Part shown: positions 14,740-62,817 of the stretch, in pieces
How positions within the stretch are numbered: position 1 is the first letter of the stretch
Layout of the letters: the number at the start of each line of letters is the position of its first letter
Assembly: GCA_900551915.1 (NCBI GenBank)
Contig: URXT01000007.1
Coordinates: 14,746-78,745, forward strand
Reading direction: 5' to 3'
Length of the DNA stretch: 64,000 nucleotides
DNA from: an uncultured bacterium
Lineage (GTDB): Bacteria; Cyanobacteriota; Vampirovibrionia; Gastranaerophilales; Gastranaerophilaceae
Program-made: the position numbers and the translations under genes
The notes under the pieces: model-generated
Seen by the model: only the letters and a program-made list of their open reading frames with translations
Told to the model about the DNA's origin: nothing
The model's database searches: none

Positions 14740-15864
14740 ATGAATAAGAAGAATATACTTGTAGTTTTCGGAACGCGCCCTGAAGTTATTAAGCTGGCGC
14801 CGGTGATTTTAGAACTCAAGAAACACACCGATAAATATAATGTTATAGTATGCAATACAGAACAGCAAAAAGAACTTTCAAATCAAACGCTTTCATATTT
14901 TAATCTTGAAGCTGATATTAATTTAGATTGCATGAAGCCAAATCAGTCGCTTCTGGAGGTTCAGACAAGAATTTTAACAGGTTTGAACTCTGTTTTTGCC
15001 AATAATAAAATTGATGCTGTAATTGTTCAAGGCGACACAATGACAGTTCTTTGCGGAGCATTAGCCGGTTTTTATAATAAAATTCCGGTGTTTCATGTAG
15101 AAGCCGGACTACGTTCTTATGATATTTACGAGCCGTTTCCGGAAGAAGTAATGCGCCAAATGACTTCACGCGTTGCTGAATTGAACTTTGCACCTACAGA
15201 AAAGAACAGGCAGGCACTATTAAAAGAAAATATTTCGGAAGAAAAAATTCATGTTGTCGGAAATACTGTTATAGACGCGCTTTTCTGTCTTTCAGAAGAT
15301 ACCATGAAATCGGCATCTGAATTTTTCAAATCACACAAAATTGAAGTTAATGACAAAATAGTTTTGATAACAGCACACAGACGCGAAAATCATGGTGAAA
15401 GAATTGACAGAATTCTTGATGCTATTGAGTATCTGGCAAAACAATACTCCAAGCATACCTTTGTAATTCCTGTCCATCCAAACCCTAATGTAAAGGAGAA
15501 AATTTATTCAAGATTGGAAAATTATCAGAACATAAGGCTTTTGGCGCCGCTGGATTATCCAAATCTTGTATATTTAATGAAGAATGCAAAATTAATCTTG
15601 ACTGATTCAGGCGGAATTCAGGAGGAAGCTCCCTCTTTCGGCTGCCCGACACTGGTTATGCGTTATGAAACCGAACGTCAGGAAGGAATTGATGCAGGCG
15701 TTTCAATTCTCGTTGGCGCAGATTATGACAAAATTGTTTCTGAAAGCGAAAAAGTGCTTTCAAACAGCCGCGAGTCCAGTCGTCTAAAAGCTGTTAACCC
15801 ATACGGCGACGGAACTTCTGCAAAACAAATCGAAGAGATTATAAATAAATATTTTAACAATTAA
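14740..15864 (+). CDS. wecB: UDP-N-acetylglucosamine 2-epimerase (non-hydrolysing)
   Basis: The 374-aa protein starts with VVFGTRPEVIKLAPVILEL and carries VQGDTMTVLCGALAGFY, VFHVEAGLRSYDIYEPFPEE, ITAHRRENHGERI and LTDSGGIQEEAPSFGCPTLVMR, all diagnostic of WecB/MnaA. It interconverts UDP-GlcNAc and UDP-ManNAc for surface polysaccharide or teichoic-like glycans. The length is normal. No ribosome-binding site is clear. TAAAAT lies 7 nt before the ATG, so it may be leaderless. A bidirectional terminator follows. Confidence 0.95.
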   Translation: MNKKNILVVFGTRPEVIKLAPVILELKKHTDKYNVIVCNTEQQKELSNQTLSYFNLEADINLDCMKPNQSLLEVQTRILTGLNSVFANNKIDAVIVQGDTMTVLCGALAGFYNKIPVFHVEAGLRSYDIYEPFPEEVMRQMTSRVAELNFAPTEKNRQALLKENISEEKIHVVGNTVIDALFCLSEDTMKSASEFFKSHKIEVNDKIVLITAHRRENHGERIDRILDAIEYLAKQYSKHTFVIPVHPNPNVKEKIYSRLENYQNIRLLAPLDYPNLVYLMKNAKLILTDSGGIQEEAPSFGCPTLVMRYETERQEGIDAGVSILVGADYDKIVSESEKVLSNSRESSRLKAVNPYGDGTSAKQIEEIINKYFNN

Positions 15865-29848: not shown

Positions 29849-29959
29849 TAAAAAAGTGGGAAAAATGGTGCTATTACAGAAATATTTTTGTAATTTAAAA
29901 AGGCAAGAACTTACAAAGATTATTAACCTATATATAGGAATAATTAAAAAGTTACTTTT

Positions 29960-30075
29960 ACTTTGATTGGTACTTTTGTGTACCAATGCAAGACAGGGGC
30001 TAGGATTAACCTGCACAGTCGTCATTGCACCAAGGCTGATACAATCCGTTATGCCCCCTTACCTTGGAAAAAGAA
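29960..30075 (+). ncRNA. Candidate structured RNA (retron msr-msd-like) before the reverse transcriptase
   Basis: In the 252-bp gap before the RT, the last ~110 bp are about 50% GC against about 27% around. Hairpins visible: ATTGGTAC-N6-GTACCAAT (29966-29987); nested CAATG...CATTG with inner GAC...GTC and AGG...CCT; CCAAGG...CCTTGG ending at about 30067. Position directly upstream of a retron-like RT fits an msr-msd, but I could not define a branching G or the a1/a2 pair. Confidence 0.45.
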
Positions 30076-30100
30076 GGATACGAAACGAAAAGGATTAAAA

Positions 30101-30904
30101 ATGAAAAATTTAGCATATTTATTAGAAGAAATTACTAAAGGATATAAAAACCTGGCTGCTGACATTTCTACAAGTTATAAACAAGTAAAAAAACGAAAAA
30201 ACAATAAAGTCAGAATTATGTATATACCAGATGAAAAGATTAAAACAGTACAGAAGCATATTAACAAAATATTACAGATAAGACTGCCCAAACCAGTCTA
30301 CCTTCATACAGGTTATAAAAAGTGTAAAATTCTGAATGTCGTAAAAGAACATAAAATGTCAAGTTTAATAATTGTATTAGATATAAAAAATTTTTATGGA
30401 AGTGTTCCGACAGAAAGAGTTTTTAATTTTTTAACTCAAATTTGTCAGCTAAATATTGATGTTGCGAAGTCAATATTTAAATTTATTACATATAGAAATA
30501 CAATACCGATTGGAATTTCTACAAGCAGTCTTGTAAGTTTTTGGGCTTGTAAAGACGTATTTGATGAAATTTATGATTATTGTGTAAATTCAGAGTATAA
30601 CATGACATTATATGCTGATGATATTATTATTTCAGGCGATATAAAAAATCCTAATAAATTGATTTCATTGGTACAAAAAACAATATCAAAGGCAGGGTTA
30701 AGCTTAAACCACCGTAAGATTAGAATTTATGGCAAGAATAAGCGTATTATGAATATTCATGTTAATTCTAAAGGAAAACTTAGCATTAATTATAATCTCC
30801 GTCGTTCAATTAGTGAACTGAAGGCTAAACAAAAATTATCTGAACAAGAAAAAATGATACTACAAGGTAAATTAAACTACGTCAGACAGGTTATGAATAC
30901 ATAA
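30101..30904 (+). CDS. Reverse transcriptase, retron-like
   Basis: A 267-aa RT. Motifs are in order: KVRIMYIPDEKIKTVQKHIN (RT1), ILNVVKEHKMSSLIIVLDIKNFYGSV (motif A with catalytic Asp; NxxxxH close to the retron NAxxH), PIGISTSSLVSFWACKD (motif B), MTLYADDIIIS (YxDD), SKAGLSLNHRKIRIYG, IMNIHVNSKGKLSINYNLR (position of the retron VTGL) and LQGKLNYVRQV. It lacks a maturase, endonuclease and the DGR-type motif B. The ATG at 30101 is preferred to an upstream TTG at 29963, because the latter would translate through the structured leader. A terminator follows, so it is a self-contained unit. Confidence 0.8.
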   Translation: MKNLAYLLEEITKGYKNLAADISTSYKQVKKRKNNKVRIMYIPDEKIKTVQKHINKILQIRLPKPVYLHTGYKKCKILNVVKEHKMSSLIIVLDIKNFYGSVPTERVFNFLTQICQLNIDVAKSIFKFITYRNTIPIGISTSSLVSFWACKDVFDEIYDYCVNSEYNMTLYADDIIISGDIKNPNKLISLVQKTISKAGLSLNHRKIRIYGKNKRIMNIHVNSKGKLSINYNLRRSISELKAKQKLSEQEKMILQGKLNYVRQVMNT

Positions 30905-30936
30905 TTTGTTTATCTTACATTATGAGAGAGCATTAG

Positions 30937-30960
30937 ACGGCATTTTAATGCCGTTTCTTT
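30937..30960 (+). terminator. Terminator after the reverse transcriptase
   Basis: ACGGCAT-TTTA-ATGCCGT stem-loop followed by TTCTTTTGT. Confidence 0.8.
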
Positions 30961-31080
30961 TGTACTTTAGGGGCTATAAAAAATTACAGACAAACATACA
31001 TGCATAAAGAAATAAGTTCTACAAGAAAAAAAACGACTAAAAAACAGATTTTCCAGTGAGTAAAGACACTAATAACACTG

Positions 31081-31674
31081 CTATGCAACATTTTTCAGAA
31101 ATTTATACAGATTAACAGTAGAAGTTTTAAATTGTTTTGCAACTACTGTTTTGGGTACACCGCAATCAAGAAGTTTTAAAATAACTTCTTGGTGTTCATC
31201 AAGTTTAGATTTTCCCTTGCCTTTAGGTCTGCCAAGTTTTAAGCCTGTTGCCTGTTTTGCGTGTAGAGCTTCTTTAGTTCTAAGGCTGATTAATTCCCTT
31301 TCAATTTGAGCAACAAGAGCAAAAACTGTAGAGGTTACAATTGCTGTAATTGTTTTATCAGCAGTACAAAAATTTTCTTTTAAAGAATAGAGTGTAAAAC
31401 CTTTTTGTTGCGATAAATCAATTATTTCAAAAATTTGTACAACAGAACGTGCAAGACGTGAAAGCTCCGGAACAATCAAAATATCACCTTGTTTAATTTC
31501 ATTGAGGATTTTTCCGATAAGCCTTTGTTTGTAATGTTTTTTGCTAGTAATATGTTCTTCGACAAACTCAACATTACCAAGTTTGTGAGAGTTTGCAAAC
31601 TTTAAAATTTCAAGTTTGTTTTTATCTGTATCTTGCAAAACTGTACTAACTCTTAAATATGCATAAACAGTCAT
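31081..31674 (-). CDS. Serine recombinase (resolvase/invertase family)
   Basis: A 197-aa small serine recombinase. YAYLRVSTVLQDTDKN holds the catalytic Ser; PELSRLARSVVQIFEII holds the conserved Arg residues; TAIVTSTVFALVAQIERELISLRTKEAL is the dimer helix E. The C-terminal HTH follows GRPKGKGKSKLDEH. Resolvase or invertase activity cannot be separated by sequence. It may resolve element dimers or flip a local segment. The palindrome at 31763 upstream could be an operator or crossover site. Confidence 0.9.
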   Translation of the reverse strand: MTVYAYLRVSTVLQDTDKNKLEILKFANSHKLGNVEFVEEHITSKKHYKQRLIGKILNEIKQGDILIVPELSRLARSVVQIFEIIDLSQQKGFTLYSLKENFCTADKTITAIVTSTVFALVAQIERELISLRTKEALHAKQATGLKLGRPKGKGKSKLDEHQEVILKLLDCGVPKTVVAKQFKTSTVNLYKFLKNVA

Positions 31675-31762
31675 AAAATGTCTCCTGTAAACTAAAAACG
31701 CATAATCCGTATTTATATTTTACACATTTATCAATCAAAACTTGACCCTTTTCTATTGATAG

Positions 31763-31779
31763 ATTTACCAACGGTAAAT
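31763..31779. promoter_or_regulatory. Palindrome ATTTACC-AAC-GGTAAAT
   Basis: Perfect 7-bp inverted repeat between the serine recombinase (minus) and hicA (plus). Its halves recur around the promoter at 28518-28545, pointing to a common island regulator or recombinase site. Confidence 0.5.
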
Positions 31780-31808
31780 GACCGTTTTAAATTGAGACTA
31801 AAAACTCT

Positions 31809-31853
31809 TGCAACTAAAAAACAGTTGCATTTTTATAACATTTGATTTATAAT
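31809..31853 (+). promoter_or_regulatory. hicAB promoter and operator
   Basis: TTGCAT (31825-31830), 17-bp spacer, TATAAT (31848-31853), six bases, ATG at 31860. An inverted repeat TGCAACT-N7-AGTTGCA (31809-31829) overlaps the -35, the classic place for HicB autorepression. Confidence 0.75.
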
Positions 31854-31859
31854 AAGAAT

Positions 31860-32114
31860 ATGACCAAGGAAGAAAAACTATTAAAACGTTTTTTAAGTAA
31901 ACCAAAAGATTTGAATTATGATGAACTTGTTCAAGTTTTGAAATATTTTGGATATTATGAGTTCACAACAGGAAAAACAACTGGTTCTGCAAAAAAATTC
32001 AAAAATGATAATAATGACTTGATAAACTTTCATAAGCCACACCCTAGCAATATAGTTAAAAGTTATATAATCAATCAGATAATAGAAAAACTTGAAAGGA
32101 ACGGGTTAATATAA
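31860..32114 (+). CDS. hicA: HicA-like toxin
   Basis: An 84-aa small mRNA-interferase-type protein. KDLNYDELVQVLKYFGYYEF, TGKTTGSAKKFKND and LINFHKPHPSNIVKSYIINQIIEKL match the HicA dsRBD-like fold, including the catalytic-His region. The partner HicB gene starts on the last base of its stop (TAATG). There is no ribosome-binding site; the promoter is placed for a leaderless mRNA. Confidence 0.88.
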   Translation: MTKEEKLLKRFLSKPKDLNYDELVQVLKYFGYYEFTTGKTTGSAKKFKNDNNDLINFHKPHPSNIVKSYIINQIIEKLERNGLI

Positions 32115-32518
32115 TGTTTGATATGAAAAAAGACAACTTTTTAAAATATAAAAATTATATAGGTTCTGTTGAATATGATTTAACCGATAAATGCCTTTAT
32201 GGAAGAATTTTATTTATTGATGATTTAATAACTTATGAAGGTGAGACCATTGAAGAATTAGAAAATTCATTTCATGAAATGGTTGATGACTATCTTGCGA
32301 CATGTAAAGAACTTGGAAAAACTCCTCAAAAAGCTTATAGTGGAAGTTTTAATGTAAGAACTGGCCCGCAAATTCATCAAGCATTAGCTGAAATAGCAGA
32401 ACTTGAAAATATTAGTTTAAATAAATTAATAGTTAATATTGTTAGTGATTTTGTAAATGATACAACCAATAAAAATAAGACTTTAAAGACTTTTAATAAA
32501 AAATTGTCTAATGCATAA
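32114..32518 (+). CDS. hicB: HicB-like antitoxin with ribbon-helix-helix tail
   Basis: A 134-aa HicB. The partially degraded RNase H-like N-domain is YIGSVEYDLTDKCLYGRILFI, DLITYEGETIEELENSFHEMVDDYLATCKELGKTP. The C-terminal Arc/MetJ-type DNA-binding segment is SGSFNVRTGPQIHQALAEIA ... SLNKLIVNIVSDFV. It neutralises HicA and probably represses the promoter through the inverted repeat at 31809. The start at 32114 overlaps hicA; an ATG at 32123 is possible. Confidence 0.9.
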   Translation: MFDMKKDNFLKYKNYIGSVEYDLTDKCLYGRILFIDDLITYEGETIEELENSFHEMVDDYLATCKELGKTPQKAYSGSFNVRTGPQIHQALAEIAELENISLNKLIVNIVSDFVNDTTNKNKTLKTFNKKLSNA

Positions 32519-32572
32519 AACAAATAATAAGAATGTATCTGTTATATATTGGCGGTATTGCGTTACAAGATA

Positions 32573-34825
32573 TTATAATTCCATAATTTCATTATAATGT
32601 GGTTCATCAATTAATTTTATAAAATTAAATAACTGTTCAATTTCGTTTTTAGTTACAAATAATTTAAATTCTTCTAATGTTTCTAGGTCTTCACATTCTT
32701 CAGTATGGCTTGATGCATTAGCAATATCTTGCAAATATTTGAATTTACATTTTTCATCATCTGGAATTTTTTTTGTTACTACTTCATACCTTGTAAATAT
32801 TGTATTCTTTCTTGGGCATCTAAAAGCTAAAAAAATTTCAAGAATTTTTCTGATAGAATTTCCTAAAGGAATTTCTTTAATTTTACCTTCCTCCATTGCT
32901 GCGACTTGTTTAAGATATTTAATAGTATGAGTATATTCTGATGTATACGTTTTCAAATAGTCATCTGCATTTTCAATAATAGAGGTATTACTTTTTGTTA
33001 AAGAAAATAATTCATATATTTCACCAATTTTTCCTTTATTTCGTAAAAAAGCTCTAAATTTTTTATAAAAATAAAAATTATGTGTAAGTATAAATAACTG
33101 CTCAAAATCACGTGGCTTATTAAATCTGGTTGTTAATAGGTTTATTAAGTTAAATAAATATTGTTGATCTAAACTACTTACAGGGTCATCAATTACAATA
33201 ATAGCATCCTTCATGTTAAAATGTATAGTTTTAAGAGTTGCAAGAAAGTACGCAAATGCAATGACTGTTTTTTCACCTTCACTTAAATTTTTAGCTATGT
33301 CACCATTTTCACGACATATTGAATATGATTTTGTTTCATCATCATATGTTAATGTAAATTTTTTATAGCCAAAAACAATATAAATATACCTTTCAATTTC
33401 AGCCATTGGTGCTTTTTGATTTGTTAATTCGGCATTTAATTTATTAATTTCTAACCTAATAACATCTATTTCTTTTTGAGCTTTTTCTATCTCAGCATTC
33501 AGAATTTCAAGTTTACTTTTTTTATCAGTAATCTCATTTTTGTTTTCTTGTACATAATATCCAACAACAATACTCTTTGCATTATTTTTGACATCTTGAA
33601 TATTTGCTGTATTTGTATTATGTATGTTAATTAAACTATTAAGAATGTTTCTAATTTTAATGTAATGTTCTATAACAGTCTTGTTAGTTAAACTAAATAT
33701 TTTATCAGGAGTTTGTTTCTTTTGATTTAGTATTTTGACTAAATTTTCCATAAAATTTTTATAATTTTCAAAGGCTGTTTTATAATCATCTAATACAGAC
33801 TGTGGTATATTATTACAGAAATCATCTACTCTCAATGTAAAGCTAGTATTTTTTATAACATTAAATGAATCTTTTACGAGTGAATATAAGACCTGCAAAG
33901 ATTTTTCAAAACTCAAAAAACTATCATCTTTTTTTATGATATTTTTTATTTCATTAAAGCGTTGTTCCCAATTTTCAATAGATTTATTACAGAAAGGACA
34001 AAAAGTTGTATTCTCTGCCTTAAATTCAAGCCCTTTTTCTAACCATTGTGCTAATTCTTCTTTAATATCTGCTCGTTTATATTCTTTTGTAATAATATCT
34101 TCAATTTGTCTTAAAGTGTCATTAGTAATAATTTCAAAATTGATACTATCTATTGTGCTTTTAACCGGTTGAATGTACTGCTTGGCATATTCATTTTTTT
34201 CATCTTCTGTAATAGTAGATTCATTTTCAGAATATCTGGCATAATCTTGTTTAAATTGCCTAATATTATATTCAGGAGCATTTTTAATATTTAGATCTAA
34301 TCTTACCAATTCTGCAGCATTTTTATAAACTTTTTCTAAATCTTCTAACCCTGTATCATATTTATGTTGTAAAATTAGCTTATTTTTTCCTTGTACTTCA
34401 GTGTAATAACCTGCCAACTCGTTATTCAATTCGTTAAGTTTATCTTTAATCTCTTTTGCTGTTTCACCTATTGTATAAGTAAGTGCATTGCTTTGAGCGT
34501 TATTGTTATCTAAAGTTAAATTATTATATACAAAATCACGATTAAATATTTTTATTTTATTACAATACAAATTTTCTTTAAATTCTTTGATATGTTGGTC
34601 ATTACTCAACAAAATATCAAAATCTTCTTTGAATGAATCTTTATCAAAAAAAATATTATCTATTTTACCATTGTTCAAACAAACAAATAAATTAGACAAA
34701 GTAGTCTTACCTGTACCATTTAAGCCCCATATAAGATTATATTTTTGAAATTCTGCAAGATTTTCATCGGCACTAAAATCTTTAAAACTTCCAAAATCTT
34801 TTATTTTTAATATTTTTTTAAGCAT
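32573..34825 (-). CDS. RloC-like ABC ATPase / anticodon nuclease
   Basis: A 750-aa protein of the PrrC/RloC (AAA_13) family. Walker A is WGLNGTGKTTLSNLF near residue 37. Coiled coil surrounds a zinc-hook-like CPFC near residue 277. The ABC signature is NLSEGEKTVIAFAYFLATL, and Walker B is AIIVIDDPVSSLDQQYLFNL. The C-terminal region has SIRKILEIFL and IANASSHTEE, which fit the Arg-Glu...His triad of PrrC anticodon nucleases (R and E spaced by 4, His about 48 later). RloC proteins cleave tRNA after DNA damage or phage attack. No restriction-modification genes flank it, as usual for RloC. AGGAG precedes the ATG. Confidence 0.75.
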   Translation of the reverse strand: MLKKILKIKDFGSFKDFSADENLAEFQKYNLIWGLNGTGKTTLSNLFVCLNNGKIDNIFFDKDSFKEDFDILLSNDQHIKEFKENLYCNKIKIFNRDFVYNNLTLDNNNAQSNALTYTIGETAKEIKDKLNELNNELAGYYTEVQGKNKLILQHKYDTGLEDLEKVYKNAAELVRLDLNIKNAPEYNIRQFKQDYARYSENESTITEDEKNEYAKQYIQPVKSTIDSINFEIITNDTLRQIEDIITKEYKRADIKEELAQWLEKGLEFKAENTTFCPFCNKSIENWEQRFNEIKNIIKKDDSFLSFEKSLQVLYSLVKDSFNVIKNTSFTLRVDDFCNNIPQSVLDDYKTAFENYKNFMENLVKILNQKKQTPDKIFSLTNKTVIEHYIKIRNILNSLINIHNTNTANIQDVKNNAKSIVVGYYVQENKNEITDKKSKLEILNAEIEKAQKEIDVIRLEINKLNAELTNQKAPMAEIERYIYIVFGYKKFTLTYDDETKSYSICRENGDIAKNLSEGEKTVIAFAYFLATLKTIHFNMKDAIIVIDDPVSSLDQQYLFNLINLLTTRFNKPRDFEQLFILTHNFYFYKKFRAFLRNKGKIGEIYELFSLTKSNTSIIENADDYLKTYTSEYTHTIKYLKQVAAMEEGKIKEIPLGNSIRKILEIFLAFRCPRKNTIFTRYEVVTKKIPDDEKCKFKYLQDIANASSHTEECEDLETLEEFKLFVTKNEIEQLFNFIKLIDEPHYNEIMEL

Positions 34826-34980
34826 TAACACTAACTCCTACATTAAAAAACAGTACAGCAAATAAGTACAGACTTTTATTTACAATAATATCAAAAATAT
34901 TCTTTTTTAAGAAGTTATGTTAAGTTTTATAGTGTTTCTTTTTAATTAACACCGTTGTATATTAAATAAAGGGAGCAAAC

Positions 34981-35241: not shown

Positions 35242-35787
35242 ATGAAGCAAACAGTAGAGCCGATAAGGAAAAAACAGCAAATAAAGCAGGTAGAAGAATA
35301 TTTAACAAAGAAAAGTCCGCGTAACAGACTGCTTTTTGTATTAGGCACAAACAGCGGTTTACGGGTTTCGGACATTTTAAACTTAAACATTTCAGATGTA
35401 CGTAACAAAACTCACATTGAAATAAAAGAACAAAAAACAGGCAAATTCAAAAAGTTTCCGATAAACAATAAACTTAAGATTTTAATTAAAGAGTTTATAC
35501 AGGGCAAAGACGACACAGAACCACTATTTTTAAGCCAAAAACGGAAACGACTTGACCGTTCACAGGCTTACAGAATGTTAAATGAAGCCTGTAAAGCCGT
35601 CGGAATAACGGTAAATGTCGGAACACACACAATGCGTAAGAGTTTCGGGTACCACCATTACAAACAATTTAAAGATGTTGCAATGTTGCAGATGATTTTT
35701 AACCACTCAAATCCTAAAATTACGTTGCGTTATATAGGTATTGAACAAGATGAAATTGACAACAGTTACAGGCAATTTGAGTTATAA
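35242..35787 (+). CDS. Small tyrosine recombinase, FimB/FimE-sized
   Basis: A 181-aa protein consisting of the catalytic domain only, like the FimB/FimE DNA invertases. It lacks most of the core-binding domain of XerC/D. Catalytic residues: Arg in NSGLRVSDILNLNISDV, HxxR in TVNVGTHTMRKSFGYHHYKQ, His in FNHSNPKITLRYIGI with the nucleophile Tyr. It lies 15 bp before a 13-bp inverted repeat that encloses a promoter facing it, and 230 bp before an autotransporter gene. This arrangement fits an invertase controlling a surface protein. The start at 35242 is preferred for its ribosome-binding site (AAAGGCAGGAACA). Confidence 0.82.
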   Translation: MKQTVEPIRKKQQIKQVEEYLTKKSPRNRLLFVLGTNSGLRVSDILNLNISDVRNKTHIEIKEQKTGKFKKFPINNKLKILIKEFIQGKDDTEPLFLSQKRKRLDRSQAYRMLNEACKAVGITVNVGTHTMRKSFGYHHYKQFKDVAMLQMIFNHSNPKITLRYIGIEQDEIDNSYRQFEL

Positions 35788-35801
35788 ATACACTAAAAAA
35801 T

Positions 35802-35907
35802 AAATCCAACAAAATAAATATTCTGATGTAATTTTTATATTATTTACTACTTATAGCATATTTTTACGGATATGGCAATAAAAATCTTTAATACTTTTGT
35901 TGGATTT
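35802..35907. repeat. Candidate invertible promoter segment
   Basis: AAATCCAACAAAA (35802-35814) and its exact complement TTTTGTTGGATTT (35895-35907) enclose 80 bp. On the minus strand inside is TTGCCA-N17-TATAAG (35878-35873 and 35855-35850) with extended -10 TGC. As drawn it points to the recombinase and away from the autotransporter; flipping the segment would turn it toward the autotransporter. Confidence 0.6.
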
Positions 35908-35930
35908 TTGAGAAATGTAAATAATAATTT

Positions 35931-35956
35931 GCACGTTAAATCCTTGTATAACGTGC
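35931..35956. other. Hairpin in the autotransporter leader
   Basis: GCACGTT-N12-AACGTGC, a 7-bp stem between the inverted-repeat segment and the autotransporter gene. No T run; it might shape the leader or be a recombinase-accessory site. Confidence 0.35.
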
Positions 35957-36017
35957 CCTTTCACAATAATACACTGTTTTATTTATTTTGATGTGTTTTG
36001 AAAGGATTAGTGAAGAG

Positions 36018-39000
36018 ATGAGAAGTGGTAAAAGATTTTTAACTGGATTAATGATTGCGGTGGTACTGTCGTCGGTTAATATTGTTTCTGCTACAGAGAG
36101 GACTACTGTTAATGAAAATGAAACTCTTAACATACATGAATTGTTATTTGAAAATATAAACTACGACGGCGACGGCGGAGTAATAGAAAATAAAGGTACA
36201 ATTTCAGTTGAAGAGAGTAACTTTTATAATAACTCTGCTAACGACGGTGGTGCTATATGGAATGACGGAATTGTTACGGAATTTGAAGGCAATACTTTCA
36301 ACAATAACACTGCCAGTCAGTTGCATGTAGAAAATATTGAAAATGCAAATACTACAATTACTCAATATAGTGGACTTGGTGGTGCTATTTATACAAATAA
36401 AGATTTAACTGTTGATAACAGCGAATTTACAGAAAATAATGCTGCAACCGGCGGCGGAGCAATCTACAATAATTACAATATTGTAGATTCAAATTTAACA
36501 GTGAAAAATTCTAAATTTACCAATAATACAGCAAAGTCAGTTATTGAAACCACAACACAAACAACAGACCGTAACGGTCAACCTGTAACTAACACGAGAA
36601 CGGAAATTCTGGGTGTTGGCGGTGCGATTGACACAAATGGAAACTTATTTGTTGAAAACAGTCAATTTGACGGTAATTTAGCGGGAAGTAGCGGTGGAGC
36701 TATAAGTAGCACAGGGCGGAATGTAAATATAAAAAATAGCAGCTTCAACGGTAATATTGCAGAAGATAAATATATCGGCGGCGGTGCTATTTATTCAATA
36801 AATAATGGTACTGTAAATATTGAAAATTCCACATTTACCTCAAATGAAGCAAAAGCAAACGGTGGTGCTTTATATGTTGAGGGTGGCACAACGCAAATTA
36901 CAGATACAAATTTCATAAATAACAAGGCAGGTAAAAAAGGCGGTGCTATTGCTGTTGGTAATGTATATGCAGCAGAGGATGAATATTCTCCAACAACAAC
37001 CCTGAATATTACTGCAAAAGATAAAGATGTTACTTTTAAGGGTAATGAAGCAGCAGTAGGGAAAGATATAAATTTAACAAAAAGCATTTTAAATTTGAAT
37101 GCAAATGAAGGCAAAAATATTATTTTTAACGGAGGCATTTCAGGTAAGGCAGCTGTTATTAATATCAACGATAAGGCGGTTAATCCTGATATAGCTTCAA
37201 CCGGAACTATCAATATAAATAACTATGTCACCCCCGACGAAAACTCGAGCCTTTCAGTCAACCTGAAAGCCGGCACTCTCGCTTTAACTAAAGATAATTA
37301 CCTGAACGGCACGGACTTAACCCTTGAAGAAGGTTCTCTGCTTGACTTAGCAAACAATAATGTTGGCGAAATGAACTTAAACAGCCTGACTTCCAACAAC
37401 GCAAACCTAAAAATAGACATGAACCTTGCAAGTTCCAACCAAATCTTCGACACAATCAAAGCAAACACAGCAACAGGTATTTTAAACCTCCAAAACGTAA
37501 ATATTACCTCAGACTTCGCAGATACAACCAAAAACGAATACACAGCCTCAATCACTCCGGACGGTATGGAATTAAAAACTCCTGAAAACGGAATTAACGT
37601 GCTGACAAACGATTACGTTTATACAATAACAGCCAAAGACAACAATCTAACCGTAAACCGCCATGCAGATGAAAACGGCGAAGCTCTCAAAACCGACGGC
37701 TTCACAGTTGCCGTAAACCAGACAGATAAAGTCGGCGGTGTAGATGTAACTTTGTCCGATGACAGAATTTATTCAGCCAACAGCGATATTAAAATAACCG
37801 CAACAAATTCGGAAACCGGCTGGACAGGAAACCTCGGCGGAAAATCCTTAACCGTAAACGGCAATGGTTACACCCTCGACGGTGAAGATAACATCGGATT
37901 TGCAATAAATAACAACCAAACCATAACCTTTAACGACACAAACATTAAAGGTTTTGCCCCAACTCCGGAAAGAAAAGCTGCCCTGACAATCAATGACGGC
38001 GGAGCTGTAAACATTAACGCCTCAAACAACGATGTTTCAATCGGCAGCAATTCAAGTACAGACGTAATCTATCTTGACGGAACTTCTTCAAAAGCATTCC
38101 TGACAACAGAAAATAACAAATCAATTACGCTTAATGACAAAATAAGTTCCGCAAACTCTTCAAACGAACTTAATCTAAACGGCAACGGCACAATAACCTT
38201 TGCAGGCATTGCCCAAAAACTTACCCTTAATAACAATAACTCAAACACAGTCCATAACGCACACGTTGACGGCGTAAACTACAATCTCAACAGTGGAATG
38301 GTAACTTTCACAAAAGATGAATACTTAAACGGTCAGGGAAATAAAAATACTCTGAACTTTAACGGCGGAACCCTGAACCTCATCAACAATTCAGTCGGAA
38401 CAATCGACCTTGCCGCTATAAACATTAACTCAAATTCAAATATTATGCTTGATGCAGATTTGGCACAAGAAACAATGGATAAAATTACTGCCGGCAGTGC
38501 AACCGCCAACAAAGACGCAATCCTAAACGTAAGCGAAATAAATCTTTTGAGCGACGCAACCAAAGACAAAGTAGAAATTAACGCAGTTGACCCAACAGTT
38601 ACTCTTAATGAAAATGATACCCTTGCAAATCATATTGCAACGACCGTAACGGAAGTCGCCTACTCCCCAATCTACAAATACGGCGTCGGCTACGACCCTG
38701 CAACCGGCAATTTCTCCTTCACACGCGGCTCAAGTCAAAACTACAACAACGTAAACCCGTCCGTAATGGTTGGTCCCGTTGCAGCACAACTTGGCGGATA
38801 CATGGGAATGCTCGACACTTACAACAACGCTTTCAACAACATGGACATGCGTATGTTAAACCCTGCAAGTGTCAGAATGGCTCAAAAACAAGCTAACAGA
38901 TATGCCATAACCGAAGAAGCCGATGGAGTAACCTACAAAGTTAACGAAACAAATTCAGGCGGAACCTGGGTAAGGCCTTTCGCCGCATACGATAGCGTAG

Positions 39001-39752
39001 GACTAAGTAACGGCCCCAAAGTAAGCAACATGTCTTACGGAACCTTTATTGGCGGCGATAGTGCAATTCACCAGTTCAAAAATGGCGGCGAAGGCGTTCT
39101 AAGTGCTCACGTATCCTATCTTGGAAGCCACCAATCCTTCAACGGCAACAGCATTTACCAGAACGGCGGCAACTTAGGCTTAACAGGAACTTATTACAAA
39201 GGCAACTTCTTCAGCGGTTTAACTGTAAACGCAGGTGCAAGTATAGCCGACGCAAGTACACGTTATGGCAACGAAGATTTCCCGATGTTAACAGCCGGTA
39301 TTGCAAACAAAACAGGCTACAACTTTGAATTCAAAGACGGTAGATTCATAATCCAGCCAAGCCTGCTCTTAAGCTACACATTCGTAAACACCTTTGACTA
39401 CACAAACGCAGCCGGTGTAAGCATAAACGGCGACCCGCTTCACGCATTCCAAATTTCACCGAATGTAAGATTTGCCCTGAACACCAAAAACAACTGGCAG
39501 CCATATTTTACAGTCGGAATGAACTGGAACATTATGAACGATTCGGAATTTACGGCAAACATGGCGACATTGCCTGATTTAAGTATGAAACCATATGTTC
39601 AGTACGGCTTAGGCATTCAAAAAACGATAAACGATAACTTCACAGCTTACGGTCAAGTCCTGTTACGCCACGGGGGCAGAAACGGTATAGCCGCGAATGC
39701 GGGCTTGAGGTATATCTTCGGGCATGAGAGTAAGACGAATGAAAATATTTAA
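36018..39752 (+). CDS. Autotransporter with Pmp-type repeats (type Va)
   Basis: The 1244-aa protein has a signal peptide (KRFLTGLMIAVVLSSVNIVSA). The first ~390 residues contain GGAI/FxxN repeats of the chlamydial polymorphic-membrane-protein type (for example NDGGAIWND, GGGAIYNNYN, GGALYVEGG, KGGAIAVG). A long Asn-rich beta-helical region follows. The C-terminal ~290 residues form an autotransporter beta-barrel starting near TWVRPFAAYDSVGL and ending GLRYIFGHESKTNENI, a slightly extended end. It is a surface adhesin-like protein. Base use changes near 37215: the first third is AT-rich, the rest richer in C and in CC/AC-ending codons, suggesting a recombined passenger. A ribosome-binding site is GAAGAG; the nearby invertible segment may switch it. 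Confidence 0.9.
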   Translation: MRSGKRFLTGLMIAVVLSSVNIVSATERTTVNENETLNIHELLFENINYDGDGGVIENKGTISVEESNFYNNSANDGGAIWNDGIVTEFEGNTFNNNTASQLHVENIENANTTITQYSGLGGAIYTNKDLTVDNSEFTENNAATGGGAIYNNYNIVDSNLTVKNSKFTNNTAKSVIETTTQTTDRNGQPVTNTRTEILGVGGAIDTNGNLFVENSQFDGNLAGSSGGAISSTGRNVNIKNSSFNGNIAEDKYIGGGAIYSINNGTVNIENSTFTSNEAKANGGALYVEGGTTQITDTNFINNKAGKKGGAIAVGNVYAAEDEYSPTTTLNITAKDKDVTFKGNEAAVGKDINLTKSILNLNANEGKNIIFNGGISGKAAVININDKAVNPDIASTGTININNYVTPDENSSLSVNLKAGTLALTKDNYLNGTDLTLEEGSLLDLANNNVGEMNLNSLTSNNANLKIDMNLASSNQIFDTIKANTATGILNLQNVNITSDFADTTKNEYTASITPDGMELKTPENGINVLTNDYVYTITAKDNNLTVNRHADENGEALKTDGFTVAVNQTDKVGGVDVTLSDDRIYSANSDIKITATNSETGWTGNLGGKSLTVNGNGYTLDGEDNIGFAINNNQTITFNDTNIKGFAPTPERKAALTINDGGAVNINASNNDVSIGSNSSTDVIYLDGTSSKAFLTTENNKSITLNDKISSANSSNELNLNGNGTITFAGIAQKLTLNNNNSNTVHNAHVDGVNYNLNSGMVTFTKDEYLNGQGNKNTLNFNGGTLNLINNSVGTIDLAAININSNSNIMLDADLAQETMDKITAGSATANKDAILNVSEINLLSDATKDKVEINAVDPTVTLNENDTLANHIATTVTEVAYSPIYKYGVGYDPATGNFSFTRGSSQNYNNVNPSVMVGPVAAQLGGYMGMLDTYNNAFNNMDMRMLNPASVRMAQKQANRYAITEEADGVTYKVNETNSGGTWVRPFAAYDSVGLSNGPKVSNMSYGTFIGGDSAIHQFKNGGEGVLSAHVSYLGSHQSFNGNSIYQNGGNLGLTGTYYKGNFFSGLTVNAGASIADASTRYGNEDFPMLTAGIANKTGYNFEFKDGRFIIQPSLLLSYTFVNTFDYTNAAGVSINGDPLHAFQISPNVRFALNTKNNWQPYFTVGMNWNIMNDSEFTANMATLPDLSMKPYVQYGLGIQKTINDNFTAYGQVLLRHGGRNGIAANAGLRYIFGHESKTNENI

Positions 39753-62671: not shown

Positions 62672-62817
62672 GTGAGAAGTGAGACGTGAAAAGTTCATAT
62701 CAGGAATTGATACTTGTAATCTGGGCATTAAGGCCTTAATTTATTAAAATACGAATATCGAAAAAATTTCAAGAGTTTTAAACTTACGATATGAACTTTT
62801 CACGTCTCACTTCTCAC
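62672..62817. repeat. 30-bp perfect inverted repeat with 86-bp spacer
   Basis: Left arm 62672-62701 (GTGAGAAGTGAGACGTG...) and right arm 62788-62817 are exact complements. The right arm's outer sequence matches the repeat at 6139-6167. It lies between rsfS and the TPR gene. The spacer has no recognisable gene. Could be a REP/MITE-like element or a strong terminator-like hairpin. Confidence 0.75.

Follow-up and report, generated by a model that had tools for sequence, protein, structure and literature searches.

A 64,000-nucleotide stretch of DNA from an uncultured bacterium of the Gastranaerophilaceae (positions 14,746 to 78,745 of contig URXT01000007.1, GenBank assembly GCA_900551915.1; hereafter the window) carries, between a small tyrosine recombinase gene and an autotransporter gene, what is very probably a promoter switch that is flipped by the recombinase, is bounded by two inverted sites termed A and C, and currently leaves the autotransporter OFF. 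Gastranaerophilales are gut bacteria that are largely uncultured, and DNA flipping at this switch probably lets one of them alternate between making and not making a large surface protein. An earlier reading, made from the letters of the window (the sequence-only reading), had proposed that the recombinase flips an invertible promoter next to its gene, and this proposal is strongly supported by covarying inverted sites, a conserved internal promoter, and natural inversions in relatives. The sites, the covariation of their cores, and the flipped relatives are established by comparison of sequences; from them we infer that the window recombinase acts at its own locus and that the flip controls transcription. 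In the proposed mechanism, the recombinase would bind the inverted 28-bp dif-like sites A and C, and strand exchange inside their identical 6-bp cores would flip the promoter segment. In the present orientation, the promoter would face the recombinase gene and the autotransporter would be OFF. The features of the locus are as follows.

35242..35784, plus strand: tyrosine recombinase (DNA invertase) with catalytic domain only, 181 amino acids (aa), stop codon at 35785-35787
35804..35831, plus strand: site A, 28 bp, ATCCAACAAAA-TAAATA-TTCTGATGTAA, core at 35815-35820
35821..35979, no strand: putative invertible segment between the cores, 159 bp, whose homologues are inverted with flanks kept in relatives
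35850..35878, minus strand: predicted promoter TTGCCA-N17-TATAAG with extended -10 (TG), -35 at 35873-35878 and -10 at 35850-35855
35969..35996, minus strand: site C, the inverted copy, reading ATACACTGTTT-TATTTA-TTTTGATGTGT on the plus strand, core at 35980-35985
36018..39752, plus strand: predicted autotransporter with Chlam_PMP repeats, 1244 aa, with a homologue (P0065) of predicted autotransporter fold

The two genes are separated by a gap of 233 bp (35785-36017, stop codon included) with a GC content of 23%. The 181-aa, catalytic-domain-only tyrosine recombinase that had been described upstream of this gap was borne out by a PF00589 match (E 1.2e-26) that spans residues 12-166, with no N-terminal core-binding domain. 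Residues R41, K65, H129, R132, H155, and Y164 are unvarying across 17 aligned recombinase sequences, and we take them to be the catalytic residues (R, K, H-x-x-R, H/W, and the nucleophile Y) of tyrosine recombinases. Domain match and motif residues together place the protein in this family. The label FimB-like, which the protein had also been given, holds for size, since it has the approximately 200-aa length of FimB/FimE-type enzymes and likewise no N-terminal core-binding domain, but not for family: NCBIfam models NF007370 and NF007371, presumably those of FimB/FimE tyrosine-type DNA invertases, gave scores of 48.1 and 52.7 bits against cut-offs of 221 and 222. By sequence, the closest solved structures are 4a8e, 5hxy, and 5jjv of the XerC/XerD/XerA/XerH group.

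Relatives of the recombinase were collected as 80 loci kept of 152 confirmed. Most come from metagenome-assembled genomes (MAGs) named Candidatus Gastranaerophilales or from uncultured or unnamed bacteria, and a few are labelled otherwise (Fusobacterium sp. CAG:439, Rickettsiales, and Acinetobacter). The top match, L001, is 98% identical and belongs to a MAG named Candidatus Gastranaerophilales (G001). A recombinase match of some kind is present in 286 of the 288 genomes of the family of G001; many of these matches are weak, and other genomes have several strong copies each. The register of the sites was taken from an alignment of the window and 10 relatives of its clade (L001, L002, L003, L005, L006, L008, and L010-L013).

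Sites A and C form an inverted pair with the 11-6-11 layout that is characteristic of dif sites, and their outer span is 193 bp. Site C is nearly palindromic and is conserved in relatives. Because tyrosine recombinases require identity between the crossover regions of partner sites, the cores of A and C would be expected to covary, and they do: the two cores of one locus are identical in 11 of 11 aligned clade loci, and the core itself occurs as TAAATA (window and L001), TAAGTA, TAGTTA, TATTCA, TATTTA, or TAATAA. The locus thus has the inverted recombination sites with identical crossover core that mark an inverton. The A-C span is mostly 170-200 bp even in relatives whose site arms differ entirely. 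In genome G001, the window-type site pattern gave two exact matches, which are the inverted pair of this locus, and one further match elsewhere with 3 mismatches; the reversed control also gave one.

Covariation was also assessed in 30 distinct loci by a blind test in which C was located by its own symmetry alone and A was left unused. The 6-bp core of C was found inverted in the A zone of its own locus in 22 of 30 cases, compared with 4.8% for the cores of other loci. As controls, the own core in direct orientation was found in 2 of 30, 8-mers in 8 of 30, and 6-mers displaced from the core by two to eight bases in 8-16 of 30. An earlier version of this C-anchored test gave 13 of 17. When sites were scored by their arms with the core masked, the cores were identical in 34 of 59 elements (permuted mean 3.3 and maximum 11 in 10,000 permutations). 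Note that the register slipped in several loci of the arms-only scoring, including the window, and we therefore relied on the C-anchored test and the clade alignment; a further core-identity figure (75 of 89 elements) is biased by the scoring and was not used.

Flipping has occurred naturally among the relatives. Within the clade of the window, L336 (genome G185) and L332/L300 (G296) are 92% identical over 1.9 kb and agree in the recombinase gene's 3' end and in the downstream gene, but the switch is inverted (173 columns, 86%). When inverted, the L336 switch is 96.5% identical to that of L010, and in L336 the conserved promoter, here TTGATA-N17-TATTAT, reads toward the downstream gene. The recombinase of L300 is 77% identical; in L336 the contig ends within the recombinase gene. 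A second case is L267, which matches L238/L259 at 91% over 2.2 kb with 176 bp inverted at 98%; L240 is likewise opposite to L267. The switch of L267/L238/L259 precedes a methyltransferase-like gene, so named from its sequence alone. A third case lies within one genome, G290, where recombinase-linked switches C99 and C106 are 94% identical over 189 bp and stand in opposite orientations before paralogous prepilin-like genes. Relatives of the window locus thus show both orientations between the same flanks.

Orientation was then compared more widely. By similarity, 74 of 85 elements (4 of them from viral contigs) fall into one component with 327 links, 1 of which is inconsistent, and of these 74 homologous switches, 58 are oriented as in the window and 16 are opposite. 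A recombinase tree of the 74 elements requires at least 11 orientation changes, 7 of them forced by well-supported branches, and orientation has therefore switched many times. Shuffled labels required a mean of 14.9 changes, and 4 of 500 shuffles were as low as 11, so that orientation is somewhat clustered on the tree.

The sequence-only reading had placed the borders of the segment at a perfect 13-bp inverted repeat, 35802-35814 / 35895-35907. The repeat is present as described, beginning 14 bases past the stop codon. Perfect inverted repeats of at least 13 bp appeared in the gap in 6 of 1000 dinucleotide shuffles, and the two arms agree at 13 of 13 positions in L001 and at all but one of them in L002 and L003, all of which would favor an invertible segment of 35802-35907. 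We nevertheless consider this version very improbable and rejected it on the clade alignment. Arm agreement falls to 10 of 13 in L013, to 8-9 of 13 in L006, L008, L010, L011, and L012, and to 1 of 13 in L005, whereas A and C keep matching cores in every aligned locus. In addition, the inverted stretch in the natural inversions (L336, L267) extends from A to C, and the right arm resembles a half-site without a partner arm. The left arm of the repeat shares positions with that of site A, and the right arm coincides with an internal arm-like half-site, termed B; what the 13-bp repeat pairs is the left arm of A and half-site B. The earlier reading had offered poor conservation of 35802-35907 beside the recombinase in relatives as grounds for abandoning its proposal. 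Outside the nearest relatives the exact repeat is indeed unconserved, but the larger switch around it is conserved.

Half-site B is one of two arm-like motifs outside the main pair.

35790..35800, minus strand: candidate pre-A accessory half-site, a degenerate arm copy with a score of 6.6, a score reached by the arms of 26 of 77 other elements
35895..35905, plus strand: candidate accessory half-site B, an arm-like motif at a fixed interior position

When each element was searched with its own arms, a pre-A hit 3-6 bp from A was found in 40 of 63 elements (12.0 with shuffled arms) and a B-type hit at the fixed interior place in 41 of 74 (10.1 with shuffled arms), an excess that is indicative only, as the position windows were picked after inspection of the data. 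In the window as a whole, there are 5 perfect inverted repeats of at least 13 bp against 0.75 expected. The longest, a 30-bp perfect repeat (62672-62701 / 62788-62817) with 86 bp between its arms, may be a further element of invertible or hairpin type.

The earlier reading was also right about the minus-strand TTGCCA-N17-TATAAG, whose -10 is preceded by TG, and about the ATG at 36018. A TTGNNN-17-TATNNN match is the best minus-strand match in 10 of 12 clade loci, and 8 columns of the -10 block are unvarying in the 11 aligned loci. A consensus promoter scan found 2 other sites (2.6 expected) and missed this one because the scan requires T at -10 position 6. In the window, the promoter now points away from the autotransporter gene and toward the recombinase gene, as it does in all clade relatives with the whole segment except L336, although for L002 and L003 the direction rests on similarity and not on promoter score. 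In this orientation, transcription would proceed into the recombinase gene on its antisense strand. A flip at the cores would bring the -35 to 35922-35927 and the -10 to 35945-35950, and transcription would start near 35957, giving a predicted leader of ~61 bases before the ATG with site C inside it and switching the autotransporter ON. The start that had been predicted ~150 bp before the ATG corresponds to a flip at the 13-bp repeat, which would give 152.

In a gap of such low GC content, where promoter-like sites are no commoner than in shuffles, the repeats and promoter-like words might be suspected to have arisen by chance. This explanation is vanishingly improbable given the conserved register, the core covariation, and the natural inversions, and it is contradicted outright by the inversion of L336 relative to L332.

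Several observations weigh against the switch as we describe it. An ON copy of the exact window locus was not found: L001 is oriented the same way, and only L336 is flipped among the clade copies checked. The A/C pair of the window is weak on its own, with 18 of 28 positions identical and a site-pair score of 13.9, just above the 95th percentile of the shuffles (13.8). Because this pair is unconvincing alone, the case for a switch rests on relatives, among which 43 of 100 scored elements exceeded the best of 100 shuffles and 68 exceeded the 95th percentile (12 of 112 recombinases were left out for having too little DNA behind the gene). Among genome elements, 54 of 143 scored 16 or less for the site pair. 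In the viral_contigs set, relatives at 44-47% identity had no such sites, and the only elements above a score of 16, 4 of 72, are 64-66% identical. Four of five recombinases at 72-75% identity have no switch in the 1.2 kb downstream or the 600 bp upstream, and the fifth, L097, has one 751 bp downstream. Some loci carry both cores in direct orientation. Outside the clade, a promoter score based on hexamer frequencies disagrees with similarity-based orientation in several elements, labelling L026, L029, L038, L040, and L052 ON and L047 and L054 OFF, opposite to their similarity-based orientation. Because of this disagreement, the figures of 58 and 16 represent, outside the clade of the window, orientation classes and not proven OFF and ON states. 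Finally, L297, whose recombinase is 87% identical over the matched part, has at 322-355 a single hybrid site and no segment; the site looks like a fusion of A's left half with C's right half, and the locus is perhaps a deleted switch.

Two further types of locus were encountered. In L023, L030, L066, L067, and L071, the two nearest cores are direct, some with a second promoter-like unit behind, and these are possible multi-site switches. In L005 (6001-6543), a recombinase with an in-frame stop lies beside a well-preserved site pair, perhaps a locked switch.

These data raise the question of whether the window locus is itself a relict, locked OFF, with a degenerate left arm in site A and a promoter that no longer flips. 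The uniform orientation of the copies nearest the window, the agreement of A and C at just 18 of 28 positions, and the in-frame stop in the recombinase of L005 would all fit such a relict. We consider it unlikely, as the window recombinase has an intact frame with its motif residues and the core and promoter words are intact. Moreover, the left arm of site A is similarly poor in L300, yet the near relative L336 is flipped. A bias toward OFF is also known for the B. fragilis Tsr19 promoter (PMC4747536). A functional switch found in its OFF state thus remains our preferred description of the locus.

We compared ten clade modules of recombinase and switch, excluding L005 and L094, in 45 non-independent pairs. 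Similarity reaches site C in 21 pairs and fades before C in the other 24. Among the 21, similarity ends no more than 7 bp from the outer end of C in 17 and within 14-26 bp in 3, and only the pair formed by the window and L001 stays similar beyond C. Downstream genes differ between modules. Exchange at site C is a possible cause of this break in similarity, and functional constraint on the module alone could also be the cause. Because downstream genes differ, we considered whether site C serves chiefly for exchange or insertion, by which the recombinase would attach the recombinase-switch module to different genes, with inversion as a side effect. The sharp end of similarity at C and the different genes beyond it speak for this alternative, but the second inverted copy of the core, the promoter between the copies, and the flips with unchanged flanks are marks of inversion, and neither a free cassette nor an empty site was met, although no search was aimed at either. 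We judge it quite improbable, and retain inversion as the main activity at A and C.

The 77 first reading frames behind C include 8 of glycosyltransferase family 2, 8 with LuxR-type helix-turn-helix domains, 4 integrases, and 3 each of nucleotidyltransferases and PMP-repeat proteins (among the 25 of 39 families listed). Of 383 genomes, 7 contain exact matches to a site pattern with TAAATA as its core, six of them once and G290 38 times, and the reversed control gave 0. In G290, 23 places (E <=1e-25) match one TAAATA switch, the query included; C59 lies near a recombinase, and many touch contig ends. About 20 dispersed, near-identical switches with this core (L370-L399, L314-L324) were noted in G290, most without a recombinase match beside them, and several of these orphans lie directly before genes that we take to be prepilin-like from a motif, FTLAEVLITLGVIGVVA. 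Of 12 orphans inspected, 8 could be oriented by the neighboring prepilin-like gene, which lies 25 bp beyond the site, and the promoter points away from the gene in all 8. The idea that G290 orphans occur in both orientations was therefore rejected: once oriented by the gene, every resolved copy points away. At C106, beside a recombinase, the promoter points toward its gene. Action in trans on the orphans is plausible because the C106 recombinase has a matching site pair.

From these observations we can tentatively imagine, although we hold it to be rather doubtful as a whole, a lineage-wide system of modular phase variation in Gastranaerophilales. In such a system, a portable cassette of ~800 bp (recombinase and switch) would be joined at site C to different surface, glycan, pilin, or methyltransferase genes. 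The many 6-bp cores would mean that switches need not cross-react, some genomes such as G290 would hold a regulon of at least 20 recombinase-less switches worked in trans, and the half-sites would set an OFF bias.

The gene downstream of the switch had been called an autotransporter, and the predicted fold of a homologue bears this out. Chlam_PMP was the only Pfam family above cut-off on the window protein. The C-terminal 325 residues are kept at 55-100% identity among the 120 relatives listed of 3089, and total lengths run from 685 to 2174 aa. Homologue P0065 is 48% identical to the window protein over 663 columns, and its predicted structure (predicted local distance difference test, pLDDT, 85.7) shows a beta-helix followed by a 12-strand barrel, the beta-helical passenger and C-terminal barrel of a type V autotransporter. 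The top PDB matches of this model are the AIDA-I, EspP, and BrkA barrels, with the NalP barrel among the top hits. A model of the barrel of the window protein alone reached a pLDDT of 29.6. As judged by the modelled homologue, the 1244-aa window protein is an autotransporter.

Known systems offer several parallels. In B. fragilis, tyrosine recombinase Tsr19 (BF2766) adjoins the promoter that it flips, the promoter is mostly OFF, and an mpi gene is nearby (PMC4747536). The window locus resembles Tsr19 and other B. fragilis invertible promoters of tyrosine recombinases in having the recombinase beside the promoter, surface-related genes, a prevalence of OFF, and a gene for an Mpi serine invertase nearby. 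It differs in phylum, in its locus-specific 6-bp cores, and in its accessory half-sites. In E. coli, the ~300-bp fimS segment, with a promoter before a surface gene, is flipped by the small tyrosine recombinases FimB and FimE. The window shares with it a small catalytic-domain-only enzyme and a promoter before a surface gene, but has a single recombinase, a segment of ~160 bp, and model scores far under the FimB/FimE cut-offs. Likeness to XerC/XerD/XerA/XerH and dif lies in the nearest solved structures and the 11-6-11 sites; unlike these, the window recombinase lacks the N-terminal DNA-binding domain, scores far below equivalog cut-offs, and has paired inverted sites.

Gut-community invertons of the PhaseFinder type are segments bounded by inverted repeats that carry putative promoters and lie close to surface genes and invertases (PMC11892184), and the window locus, with its predicted promoter, has the same composition. 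The words Melainabacteria and Cyanobacteria are absent from the main text of that paper. A literature search for phase variation or inversion in this lineage, under the names Gastranaerophilales, Melainabacteria, and Cyanobacteria, left most subscription journals outside its reach and brought up nothing on the subject; the single paper listed deals with flagellin diversity. The mechanism of an invertible promoter flipped by a tyrosine recombinase is already known, and the window locus represents a variant of it in gut Melainabacteria (Gastranaerophilales). Because the switch can be read from sequence with named site boundaries, surface variation could be measured from existing metagenome reads, and the locus-specific cores suggest a natural set of small invertases with differing site preferences.

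Other genes for mobile or variable functions lie around the locus. An Mpi-family serine recombinase gene (31081-31674, minus strand; NF009949 164.5 bits, cut-off 272) is divergent from the tyrosine recombinase gene and 3.5 kb away, and in the region around it (30801-32700) perfect inverted repeats whose arms lie less than 1.5 kb apart do not exceed 11 bp. A reverse transcriptase protein (RVT_1) is encoded at 29963-30904 on the plus strand, and a block at 29956-32518 that includes the Mpi-like gene recurs in L013 at 77% identity. Between the serine and tyrosine recombinase genes sits a gene for a 752-aa AAA_13 ATPase (32573-34831, minus strand), which may be a variable neighbor because L001 has no match over this interval. 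On the other side, a full-length phage-type integrase gene (Int_N and PF00589; 39861-40937, minus strand) is convergent with the autotransporter gene.

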